This document shows, one piece after another, positions 22,967 through 26,181 of a stretch of DNA of 64,000 bases. The notes beneath the pieces are model-generated. The model made no database searches and was not told the DNA's origin. It saw only the letters and a list, made by a program, of their open reading frames with translations. The DNA lies in contig NZ_JADEYP010000006.1 in the NCBI RefSeq assembly GCF_020295405.1, positions 1-64,000 of the forward strand, in the 5' to 3' direction. The first letter of the stretch is position 1, and each line of letters starts with the position of its first letter. The position numbers were made by a program, and so were the translations under genes. Source of the stretch: Sphingobacterium bovistauri (GTDB lineage Bacteria > Bacteroidota > Bacteroidia > Sphingobacteriales > Sphingobacteriaceae).

Positions 22967-23013
22967 GAATCACCAGGTATCACATTTATTTGATATCTGG
23001 TGATTCTTTTTTT
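22967..23013 (+). terminator. Terminator of the stress-protein operon
   Basis: A 16-bp stem (GAATCACCAGGTATCA pairing with TGATATCTGGTGATTC, including one G-T pair) is followed by a T7 run. Confidence 0.88.
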
Positions 23014-23295
23014 AAAATTCTAACAGAAAATTTAAAAAGTACTTAGTAAAAATTAATTAAATCATGATATTTCGAGTCAACTAGTCTTTATTACCTTTCA
23101 CCACCAAAAAACAGCGATTACAGTTTAAAAAATATTTTAACAAAAAAACAACAACTTATTAATGAGGTTCGAAATCATGAAAACAAGCACCTGAGCTTCA
23201 TGTATTTAACAAAAAATTAAATTACACGTAATTTATGTAGCTTTTAACCTACATAAATTATCAAACATATAATCTTTTATCGATTTAAGATCATT

Positions 23296-23323
23296 GATTT
23301 TTATTTTTGCAAGAATAAAAATC
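23296..23323 (+). promoter_or_regulatory. ompA-like promoter embedded in an inverted repeat (first copy)
   Basis: A 10-bp perfect inverted repeat (GATTTTTATT, 23296-23305; AATAAAAATC, 23314-23323) has loop TTTGCAAG. The -7 element TATTTTTG (23302-23309) spans the left arm and loop. The start codon is 24 bases downstream. The region 23014-23295 upstream is gene-free and AT-rich with no other recognisable element. Confidence 0.55.
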
Positions 23324-23347
23324 TTAAAAATTAAAATTATTAATTTA

Positions 23348-24658
23348 ATGATCTGCAATTACAAAAAATTCACATTAGCATTAGCTACAGGCTTATTTAC
23401 TACAGCTTCATTTGCCCAAATTTCACACCCAACAATTGAAGGCACTACGCCATTTTCACCTAGATCAGAATACAAAACCTGGTCATTCGGACTAAATGCG
23501 GGACTTTTAAACCAATGGAATTTTTTTGACTTCAATCAAGAAGGTTTTAAAAAAATGGACAATAATGCAGGATACAGCGCATATATTAAAAAACACTTTT
23601 CACCTTCATTCGGAATTAAAGCTCAATATTTAGGAGGTAAAGTAGGAGGCAGTAATCCAACAACAGGAACTTCTTTTGAAACAAAGACACCTTGGTCAGC
23701 AGCTTTATCAGGAGAATTAACTTTAGGAAACGCTAATTGGAGATTTATCAATAGTTTTATCAAACCATTCGTTTCTGTTGGTGTTGGTGCTTTAAACTTT
23801 GAGACTACATACGCAGGTAATACGCACGATGCAAAAACTAAATTATTCATACCAGTAGATGCTGGTTTTAAATTCGCTATTGCTAAAGGGGTTAACTTCG
23901 ACTTAGGTTATCAACTTAACTTCGTGAATAAAGATTTTAATGGCATACAATCAGGCTCATTAAAGCATGATACTTATAATTATATTCACGCAGGTCTTGA
24001 AATTGCATTAGGAGGATCAGGCAAACCATTCTTAGCTAACAGTAATCCTGCCGCAACTTTAGCCGCTGACGTCAATAATAAGTATGATCAGATCAAAGCA
24101 GAGCGTGATGCACTTATCGCTTCTAACAATGTGTTGAAAGATCAAATAGCACAAATTAATCAAGATCTGGAAGATAGTGACAATGATGGTGTACCTAATA
24201 AATTTGACAAATGTCCAAACACACCAGCAGGAGTTCCTGTAGATGGAGCAGGATGTCCTATCAAATTAAAGAATGAAACAAAGGTTATTGAGAAAATAGT
24301 CGTTACCGAAGAAGACAAAAAAGTAGTAGATGAAGCCATTAAGAATTTAGAATTTGAAACGGGCAAATCGACTATACGTTCTACTTCATACTCATCTTTA
24401 GATAGAGTGGCAGCGATTTTAATTGAGAAAAACTTTAGTTTAAAATTAGCTGGTCACACGGACAATACAGGTTCTTTACAGACAAACTTACGTTTATCAA
24501 AAGAACGTGCTGAATCTGTTAAAGCTTACTTAGTATCCAAAGGTGCAAATGCTTCTCGTATAGAGGCTACTGGCTATGGGCCAAACCAACCTATCGCATC
24601 AAATACTACAGCAGAGGGTCGTCAGCAAAACCGTCGTGTTGAATTTACTTTATATTAA
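23348..24658 (+). CDS. OmpA-family outer membrane protein with TSP3 repeat
   Basis: 436 residues from the ATG at 23348; the upstream extension lies in the promoter hairpin and lacks signal-peptide character. The signal peptide ends TTASFAQ. Residues about 30-230 form an 8-stranded-type beta-barrel domain with repeated aromatic/glycine strands. Then come a coiled-coil-like segment (about 240-275), a calcium-binding thrombospondin type 3 repeat (DSDNDGVPNKFDKCPNTPAG), and the periplasmic OmpA peptidoglycan-binding domain (LKLAGHTDNTGS to GRQQNRRVEFTLY). It anchors the outer membrane to the cell wall. A paralogue follows at 24946, each gene with its own promoter and terminator. Confidence 0.92.
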   Translation: MICNYKKFTLALATGLFTTASFAQISHPTIEGTTPFSPRSEYKTWSFGLNAGLLNQWNFFDFNQEGFKKMDNNAGYSAYIKKHFSPSFGIKAQYLGGKVGGSNPTTGTSFETKTPWSAALSGELTLGNANWRFINSFIKPFVSVGVGALNFETTYAGNTHDAKTKLFIPVDAGFKFAIAKGVNFDLGYQLNFVNKDFNGIQSGSLKHDTYNYIHAGLEIALGGSGKPFLANSNPAATLAADVNNKYDQIKAERDALIASNNVLKDQIAQINQDLEDSDNDGVPNKFDKCPNTPAGVPVDGAGCPIKLKNETKVIEKIVVTEEDKKVVDEAIKNLEFETGKSTIRSTSYSSLDRVAAILIEKNFSLKLAGHTDNTGSLQTNLRLSKERAESVKAYLVSKGANASRIEATGYGPNQPIASNTTAEGRQQNRRVEFTLY

Positions 24659-24682
24659 TATATTTTAAGAGTAATTAAGCAT

Positions 24683-24722
24683 AAAAAATGGGCTTTGAAA
24701 TATTTCAAAGCCCATTTTTTAT
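24683..24722 (+). terminator. Terminator of the first ompA-like gene
   Basis: An 18-bp perfect inverted repeat (24683-24700, 24703-24720) with A6/T6 ends; core TGGGCTTTGAAA. Confidence 0.93.
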
Positions 24723-24874
24723 TTAGGTCTGTAGTGTATTCTCCACAAGAATACACAAACAACAAACCAAAATAAAAATCACATCTTATTAAAAATCAAC
24801 AAATTAAAACAAAAACCAGAACGAAATTTAAATTAAATTTCATAAGAGTATTTATTAAATAAAAAACTAATACA

Positions 24875-24920
24875 TATATTTGCAATATAAAGTTGTAATA
24901 AACAATTTTATATTGCAAAT
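24875..24920 (+). promoter_or_regulatory. ompA-like promoter with long 5' hairpin (second copy)
   Basis: The -7 element TATATTTG (24875-24882) overlaps the left arm of an inverted repeat: 13 bp perfect (TTTGCAATATAAA, 24879-24891; TTTATATTGCAAA, 24907-24919). The repeat extends inward by five more pairs (GTTGT with ACAAT, one G-T) around loop AATAA, and outward by one pair. The start codon is 26 bases after the right arm. If transcription starts near 24888 most of the left arm is not transcribed, so a DNA operator is as likely as an mRNA hairpin. Confidence 0.6.
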
Positions 24921-24945: not shown

Positions 24946-26181
24946 ATGAAAATAAATAATTTAACTAAAGTATCTGCATTGCTACTTGCTTTGTTTACAA
25001 CTTCAAATAGTTATGCACAAGAAGCTATATACGATAGCTCTTTACCAAGATCAGAATACAGAACATGGTCATTCGGCCTGAACACAGGTTTGTTAAGTCA
25101 AGAGAACAAATTTGGTTTCAATGAAGGCAATTTAGAATTAGGGTATAGCGCATACATCAAAAAACACTTGTCTCCAAACTTCGGATTCAAACTTCAGTAT
25201 TTAGGAGGAAAAATTCGTGAGGCATCAAGTTCTACAACTCAATTTGAAACTAAACTACCATGGTCAGTAGCTCTTTCAGGAGAATACGTTTCTAATTTAT
25301 TTAATTCTAAAGTTGTTAAACCATATTTAGCGGCTGGTATTGGTTACTTAAATGTCAACAGAAGCTCTGGAAGCACAGAAACAGATTTAAATAGAGTATT
25401 CGTTCCTGCAGATTTAGGTTTGAAATTTGTAATTGGACGTGGTACTAACTTAGACTTAGGTTATCAATTTAATTGGACAAATGATTATTTTGATGGTAAA
25501 TCGAATCACTCATTTCCGTATGACTTATTTTCATATGTACACGTTGGTTTAGAATTCGCTCTAGGATCTAAAGAAAAACCGTTCATCCAAAATACAAAAC
25601 GAGCAAATACAAGTGATCACTTATCACAAAAATACGATGAGCTAAAAGCTGCACAAGAAGCTATTTTAAAATCAAACAATGATATTAAAAATCAACTTGA
25701 CAACTTAACTAAAGGCTTGAAGGATGATGACAAAGACGGTGTTGCAAACATCTACGACAAATGTCCAAATACACCTTCTGGAACTAAAGTTGATGGCTCA
25801 GGATGTCCATTGCCTGAATTAAAATTACCTGAAAACGAAAAACAAGTTGTAATTGAGGCTGTAAAAAATCTAGAATTTGATTTCAACACCGCAAGTATTC
25901 GTTCTTCATCAAATGGCTATTTAGATAAAGTTGCTGAATTAATGAAAAGTAAAGATTATAGCTTGAAACTGGACGGCTATACAGATAACATTGGTTCTTC
26001 AACTGTAAACCAAAAATTATCAAACGACCGTGCTGATGCTGTTAAAACATATTTAGTATCTAAAGGTGTATCTGCAAGTAAAATCGTAACTGCAGGTCAT
26101 GGCGAAAATCAACCTATCAGTTCAAATGATACGGAAGAAGGACGCCAACAAAATCGCCGCGTAGAATTCTCACTATATTAA
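24946..26181 (+). CDS. OmpA-family outer membrane protein with TSP3 repeat, paralogue
   Basis: 411 residues. The signal peptide ends TTSNSYAQ. It has the same order of parts as the preceding gene: N-terminal barrel with the shared PRSEYRTWSFGLNTGL motif, a helical linker (SQKYDELKAAQEAILKSN), one TSP3 repeat (DDDKDGVANIYDKCPNTPSG), and the OmpA C-terminal domain (LKLDGYTDNIGSS to GRQQNRRVEFSLY). The copies diverge in barrel loops but keep the strands, so they are an older duplication. They could be differently expressed versions of one structural porin. Confidence 0.92.
   Translation: MKINNLTKVSALLLALFTTSNSYAQEAIYDSSLPRSEYRTWSFGLNTGLLSQENKFGFNEGNLELGYSAYIKKHLSPNFGFKLQYLGGKIREASSSTTQFETKLPWSVALSGEYVSNLFNSKVVKPYLAAGIGYLNVNRSSGSTETDLNRVFVPADLGLKFVIGRGTNLDLGYQFNWTNDYFDGKSNHSFPYDLFSYVHVGLEFALGSKEKPFIQNTKRANTSDHLSQKYDELKAAQEAILKSNNDIKNQLDNLTKGLKDDDKDGVANIYDKCPNTPSGTKVDGSGCPLPELKLPENEKQVVIEAVKNLEFDFNTASIRSSSNGYLDKVAELMKSKDYSLKLDGYTDNIGSSTVNQKLSNDRADAVKTYLVSKGVSASKIVTAGHGENQPISSNDTEEGRQQNRRVEFSLY

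Follow-up and report, generated by a model that had tools for sequence, protein, structure and literature searches.

Putative sigma-54 promoters and a shared inverted repeat upstream of ompA-like genes in Sphingobacterium, with an apparently decayed promoter in Sphingobacterium bovistauri

Background

Few studies, to our knowledge, have dealt with how Bacteroidota regulate their abundant outer-membrane proteins. In E. coli, ompA carries a 5' stem-loop that stabilises its message. For F. psychrophilum, the excerpts of PMC9723704 available to us describe one sigma-54 and three PF00158 proteins, a typical -24/-12 motif obtained from 5'-end RNA-seq and confirmed by mutagenesis at one operon, and sigma-54 promoters for protein quality control, envelope stress and gliding and for a probable lipoprotein that has an OmpA-like domain. 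The same excerpts place the TAnnTTTG box of this organism at -12 to -5. Among the matches listed in the open-licence literature, we recognised no paper on sigma-54 and OmpA in Sphingobacterium, and a search of that literature for both TGTAG/CTACA half-sites plus "enhancer-binding" gave none; the parts of PMC12316311 that were accessible make no mention of OmpA or Sphingobacterium.

Results and discussion

The locus and the genomes compared

The window, which is the whole stretch of 64,000 nucleotides analysed, comes from a genome of Sphingobacterium bovistauri of 4.05 Mb in 71 contigs, the named close relatives of which are Sphingobacterium bovisgrunnientis, S. cavernae, S. litopenaei and Sphingobacterium sp. 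T2 (63 to 82% identity for gene B). It carries two OmpA-like genes in tandem, with the following features around the first of them.

22967..23006, + strand: terminator-like hairpin 3' of the upstream gene (best dyad in the gene A intergenic region, then a T run)
23229..23260, no strand: TAATTTATGTAG-N8-CTACATAAATTA dyad with the core TGTAG-N8-CTACA at 23236-23253, proposed enhancer or regulator site of gene A (exact match, 12-bp perfect arms, genus-wide conservation of the spacer of 8)
23296..23323, no strand: dyad A, A/T-rich and within reach of chance (inverted-repeat search and shuffles, alignment of orthologues)
23302..23309, + strand: TATTTTTG, matching the Bacteroidota -7 box TAnnTTTG and overlapping dyad A (motif match)
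23307..23323, + strand: apparently decayed sigma-54 core, TTGCAAGAATAAAAATC against TTGGCAACATAATTGTC in the nearest orthologues (alignment)
23348..24658, + strand: gene A, OmpA-like protein (start codon placed from the signal peptide)
24681..24722, + strand: terminator-like hairpin 3' of gene A with 21-bp perfect arms (inverted-repeat search, shuffles)

The gene that precedes the hairpin at 22967..23006 is presumably universal-stress-protein-like, a name taken from reading its sequence.

At least one such OmpA-like gene at E <= 1e-60 was found in 88 of the 93 genus genomes. Three sets of upstream sequences were collected: 76 of A/B type, 58 of a third paralogue (C) and 37 from 30 further genomes, which belong to the same genus and are not an independent lineage; relatedness among the genomes makes the counts look stronger as evidence than they are. 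The broken-gene fragment L064 at 3774 was excluded from all upstream counts (76 of 77 kept), and the 58 C sequences exclude L143, which has no start codon in reach, and one stretch of G051; L055:99, with only 99 bases upstream, stays in the counts. S. bovisgrunnientis (L086) was used in alignments and lies outside the 76, the 37 and the 25 tandem loci, and G051, the two genes of which are on two contigs, is outside the tandem-locus set. The alignment upstream of gene A holds the window and six orthologues, G042 being excluded as it aligns poorly; gene B has few orthologues, and its comparisons rest on five sequences (the window and four others).

The dyad before gene A

The original prediction was that each of the two genes has a -7 element built into an inverted repeat just upstream of its start codon. 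Both dyads are indeed found in the sequence, each overlapping a TAnnTTTG box (TATTTTTG in dyad A and TATATTTG in dyad B), and for dyad A the described 10-bp perfect arms around TTTGCAAG were recovered at 23296-23305 and 23314-23323, with an alternative closure of 13/14 pairs between 23296-23309 and 23310-23323. When the last 100 nt before gene A were shuffled 2000 times with dinucleotides kept, a fraction of 0.0615 of the shuffles reached a repeat of this grade, and the best dyad in the last 120 nt is not dyad A, it is the TAATTTATGTAG-N8-CTACATAAATTA repeat at 23229-23260. In the alignment, dyad A and its TATTTTTG were found in none of the six orthologues. Dyad A was rejected as a selected element because it is absent from these orthologues and lies near the chance level. 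The argument that the same geometry with different sequence reveals selected structure therefore fails for dyad A: chance can account for it, and the orthologues hold a core of sigma-54 type instead.

All six aligned orthologues have TTGGCA-N6-TTG at the place of dyad A, followed by T in three and by A in three, and the window has TTGCAAGAATAAAAATC there, which lacks the combination of GG at -24 and, ten bases further on, G at -12. The left arm of dyad A aligns with the T-rich stretch that precedes the sigma-54 core of the orthologues; this stretch comes after a long hairpin, significant in L066 and L067 and seen by eye also in G103, G106 and G099, which we take for the terminator of the preceding gene. 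The start of the TGTAG dyad lies 71 bp from the start of the decayed core in the window, and the corresponding distance in gene A orthologues is 69-71 (L066, L067, L183 and L185) or 70 (L064). Dyad A thus occupies what looks like a worn-down sigma-54 promoter that relatives still carry, and it is best read, on this alignment, as decay products that pair by accident. A sequencing error is an unlikely cause of the lost core, because several bases differ in both core elements (one strain being compared).

The arrangement of hairpins also varies at this locus. In the orthologues compared (L086, L066, L067, L183 and L185), the long hairpin and T tract lie between the TGTAG dyad and the core, whereas in the window the terminator-like hairpin at 22967-23006 sits upstream of the TGTAG dyad; in L185 the arms of the hairpin have another sequence, with pairing retained by eye.

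At gene A, the enhancer-like dyad is intact and the -24/-12 core has apparently decayed into TTGCAAGAATAAAAATC, the A/T-rich remains of which pair by accident with the preceding T tract, which gives dyad A, and by accident also read TATTTTTG; gene A is therefore probably transcribed now from a weak sigma-A promoter, or only little.

A sigma-54-type core before ompA genes across Sphingobacterium

We searched the last 260 bases of each upstream sequence for TTGGC-N7-TTG, a pattern that leaves the base after the -12 TTG free and does not demand the canonical base, with shuffles and changed spacings as controls. The core was found before 49 of the 76 A/B-type genes (shuffle mean 0.38, maximum 3), and spacings of N5, N6, N8 and N9 gave 0, 2, 0 and 0. 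It precedes 51 of the 58 C paralogues (shuffle mean 0.14, other spacings 0) and 25 of the 37 upstreams from the further genomes, where shuffles, with a mean of 0.1, were the only control. The form TGGC-N7-TTGC accounts for 40 of the 76 A/B-type upstreams, and the C genes have mostly TTGT. In first copies of the genus, the GG-N10-G core occurs above chance and with strict spacing. The factor itself (PF04552) was matched in 92 of the 93 genus genomes, over the family cut-off in 91, the window's included, and a search of the window's own genome gave three strong sigma-54 activator genes (PF00158).

The C paralogue of the window's genome has both the core and the TGTAG dyad. A strict search of this genome for TTGGCA-N6-TTG[CT][AT] gave 15 matches, against 5 for the reversed control. 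Eight of the 15 lie inside open frames and are probably due to chance; of the seven outside listed open frames, five are followed, 70-114 bases on, by an open frame in the same orientation, namely the C paralogue, another OmpA-domain gene (C17), two signal-peptide proteins of 158 and 152 aa, and a Lon-like protein, which we take for Lon from reading its sequence. Seven outgroup loci, the start codons of which were only estimated, showed no core and one imperfect dyad.

Two side observations concern these genes. One of the activator genes (L102, C17 in the window's own genome) lies about 5 kb from an OmpA-domain gene and is a candidate for the TGTAG site; its neighbours look, from reading, like miaB and lptE. 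In the stretch that adjoins the start codon, the leader of the C paralogue varies very little within the genus, with AACAATTAAAA...AATAACCTTAAAAACAAGAGT and near variants (L003 at about 855-891 and other C upstreams).

A TGTAG-N8-CTACA dyad at set distances from the core

The signal that genes A and B have in common is an upstream TGTAG-N8-CTACA, and not dyads A and B. Before gene B it is present with one mismatch.

24730..24747, no strand: TGTAGTGTATTCTCCACA, one mismatch away from TGTAG-N8-CTACA, upstream of gene B (motif match)

With no or one mismatch, this dyad was found before 35 of the 76 A/B-type genes, 23 of the 58 C genes and 18 of the 37 further genes, and the controls gave 0.5 or less for shuffles and 0-3 for spacers of 5, 6, 7, 9, 10 and 11; at up to one mismatch it is absent from 41 of the 76 and 19 of the 37 A/B-type upstreams. 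In the 37 A/B cases that have both elements, the start-to-start distance between the dyad and TTGGC falls at 59-61 in 17, at 69-71 in 14 and at 83-84 in 4, the remaining two being 28 and 128, with nothing between 62 and 68. The distance is thus constrained in 35 of the 37, and gene B, having no core, offers none. In C genes it is 147-152 in 6 of 22 and 161-166 in 16 of 22.

Activators of sigma-54 must face the polymerase. Going from 60 to 70 adds about one helical turn, as would suit a protein under this constraint; the step to 83-84 and the step among C genes exceed a turn and fit such phasing less well. Judged by these positions, the simplest view of TGTAG-N8-CTACA is that a sigma-54 enhancer-binding protein would bind it, and the dyad would provide a handle on which of the three activators controls ompA. 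In 16 of the 76 A/B-type upstreams (one with only 99 bases available) the core is at -79 or -81 and there is no TGTAG dyad. Although no sigma-54 core is found there, gene B has a dyad upstream, as have its L066 and L067 orthologues (at -215 and -218), and a pure enhancer role therefore does not explain the dyad of gene B. Elsewhere in the window's genome, the stretches fetched for nine other exact TGTAG dyads contain no sigma-54-like match, and a genome-wide count shows no enrichment of the dyad (104 places with up to one mismatch, against 152 for the reversed control).

Two further upstreams, L187 and L198, retain a TGTAG-like dyad with one mismatch and have no sigma-54 core, perhaps a second loss.

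Other dyads at ompA promoters

Dyads at ompA promoters have arisen in other species too, with other sequence. A TTGCCA...TGGCAA dyad was found in 12 of 113 upstreams (L018, L020, L021, L029, L033, L056, L065, L184, L186, L190, L192 and L195), and it overlies the -24 element of the sigma-54 core in all of them but L056, which has 23-bp arms and no core match; in six of the first 76 upstreams it is both significant and over the core. These dyads have changing loops, some of them GNRA-like by eye, and differing outer pairs. At p < 0.05 (60 shuffles each), a dyad of any kind was detected in 21 of the 76 A/B-type upstreams, mostly terminator-like or TGTAG, and in none of the 58 C genes. What survives of the idea of repeated dyads is thus their presence, with other sequence, at the ompA promoters of other species.

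First and second copies of tandem loci

Among 25 tandem loci, many of them from closely related species, 24 show a core at the first copy only, and the window is the exception, with a core at neither copy. Single-copy loci have the core in 50 of 63 cases. Before the second copy, TAnnTTTG is found between -80 and -15 in 22 of the 25 loci, the window's included, and is missing from L042, L200 and L205.

The first, upstream tandem ompA copy in Sphingobacterium would then be served by a sigma-54 promoter (-24 TTGGCA, -12 TTG), helped in many species by a TGTAG-N8-CTACA site some six or seven helical turns upstream, and the second, without a sigma-54 core, would mostly use a sigma-A -7 box (TAnnTTTG). 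We consider it rather probable that sigma-54 and the dyad control first copies, that the core has been lost at gene A and that dyad B is a separate operator-like element. The positions of the elements, their conservation and spacing, and the loss in the window are direct observations; the binding of sigma-54 and of an activator, the start sites and the operator role of dyad B are what this account predicts from them. With only slightly more confidence than doubt, we extend it to a general scheme in which the OmpA porin genes of the whole genus would be enhancer-activated sigma-54 genes with the TGTAG site on one helix face, first copies would depend on sigma-54 and second copies on sigma-A, and the window's species would be in the midst of losing this division, gene A keeping an enhancer without a core. 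A structural reading of the two promoters is thereby replaced by a regulatory one that can be tested: the OmpA genes of a genus preceded by a core and by a dyad at exact spacing, under a rule for first and second copies that 24 of the 25 tandem loci obey.

The promoter and dyad of gene B

The second copy differs from the first in the standing of its dyad.

24875..24882, + strand: TATATTTG, Bacteroidota -7 box of gene B, overlapping dyad B (motif match; 6 of 8 columns invariant in five sequences)
24878..24920, no strand: dyad B, with arms at 24878-24896 and 24902-24920, where conservation before gene B is highest (inverted-repeat search, shuffles, alignment)
24946..26181, + strand: gene B, OmpA-like protein of 411 aa (ORF translation)

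A sigma-54 promoter was rejected for gene B, as no TTGGC-N7-TTG precedes it or its orthologues L066, L067 and L011, and by reading there is no GG between 24748 and 24945. The TAnnTTTG box is present in four of the five sequences compared, G051 reading TATTTTTA. Dyad B has 18 Watson-Crick pairs of 19 plus one G.T, which bears out the 18-19 pairs described at the outset, though the perfect outer run, put at 13 bp, is counted as 14 consecutive pairs by reading. No repeat of this grade arose in 2000 dinucleotide shuffles of a 100-base stretch. In the five sequences, 28 of the 43 columns of dyad B are invariant, against 10 of 43 in the adjoining stretch, and conservation upstream of gene B peaks at 24861-24920.

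That dyad B lies beyond chance, that this conserved peak covers it and that each of the two dyads overlaps a TAnnTTTG box would suit operators at which one or two repressors cover the promoters of abundant envelope proteins. We find this doubtful for the pair, since dyad A is reached by 6% of shuffles and is lacking in the aligned orthologues, the two dyads differ in sequence, and the arm of dyad B gives no sign of a regulon. Membership of a regulon was rejected for dyad B on its own account, the 18-base arm recurring only once elsewhere in the window's genome, with two mismatches. The suggestion of an operator stays plausible for dyad B, given its invariant columns, and not for dyad A.

A second possibility, stabilisation of the gene B message by dyad B as a 5' hairpin, as in E. 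coli ompA, we regard as quite improbable. With the box at -12 to -5, as in the accessible excerpts of PMC9723704, transcription of gene B would start near 24887, and only about 10 of the 19 pairs, the inner ones, would enter the RNA; since the -7 box places the expected start inside each dyad, neither should form a full RNA hairpin. RNA from 24888 does fold, at -7.9 kcal/mol, but modestly in comparison with shuffles (z -1.71, 10 of 200 as good), and the leader stretches of four orthologues give z from 0.31 to -1.03. Eight of the 19 pairs of dyad B are broken in some orthologue and one pair is changed on both sides; the covariation score over the five sequences is 0.105, against 0.103 in partner shuffles, which shows no excess, and a covarying hairpin was rejected. 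Conservation of pairing in relatives had been proposed as a check, and its failure as a refutation, and for dyad B the arms prove to be kept as sequence and not as pairs; with no covariation and weaker folds in the orthologues, the message-stabilising hairpin is left unsupported.

The fold of the whole dyad, -19.5 kcal/mol in the window against -6.3 to -10.4 in the four orthologues, bears on a third explanation, in which dyad B is mostly a by-product, of a conserved promoter together with template switching by which the window's species perfected a quasi-palindrome. Among the five sequences, the window alone indeed has the near-perfect 19-bp form, and the half-sites CAA..TTGT..ACAA..TTG are close to what all five have; however, 25 of the 38 columns to the right of the -7 box are invariant, beyond the needs of a promoter, and we think this origin unlikely.

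We favour, and hold loosely, the reading of dyad B as a conserved DNA-level element the role of which is uncertain. It would be a lineage-specific element covering the sigma-A promoter of gene B and the beginning of its transcript, most likely an operator acting at the level of DNA, of which the inner half alone could enter the message.

Comparison with known systems

As in the stem-loop of E. coli ompA, an inverted repeat is found near the leader of an OmpA gene. By contrast, the expected start would leave most of dyad A and about half of dyad B untranscribed, and the pairs are not conserved. Gene B resembles the sigma-A promoters of the Bacteroidota (TAnnTTTG) in having TATATTTG, and departs from them in that no -33 TTG is seen by eye before gene A or gene B and that a conserved dyad covers the gene B box. 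The closest likeness is to motif SM4 of F. psychrophilum, as given in the accessible excerpts of PMC9723704: both systems have a -24/-12 core (here TTGGCA-N6-TTG), a sigma-54 gene with three PF00158 activators, and outer-membrane and OmpA-domain targets. They differ in that, in Sphingobacterium, the base after the -12 TTG is C, T or A, the first copy of the window is without a core, and the promoters precede ompA genes across the genus, with a TGTAG-N8-CTACA dyad at set distances.
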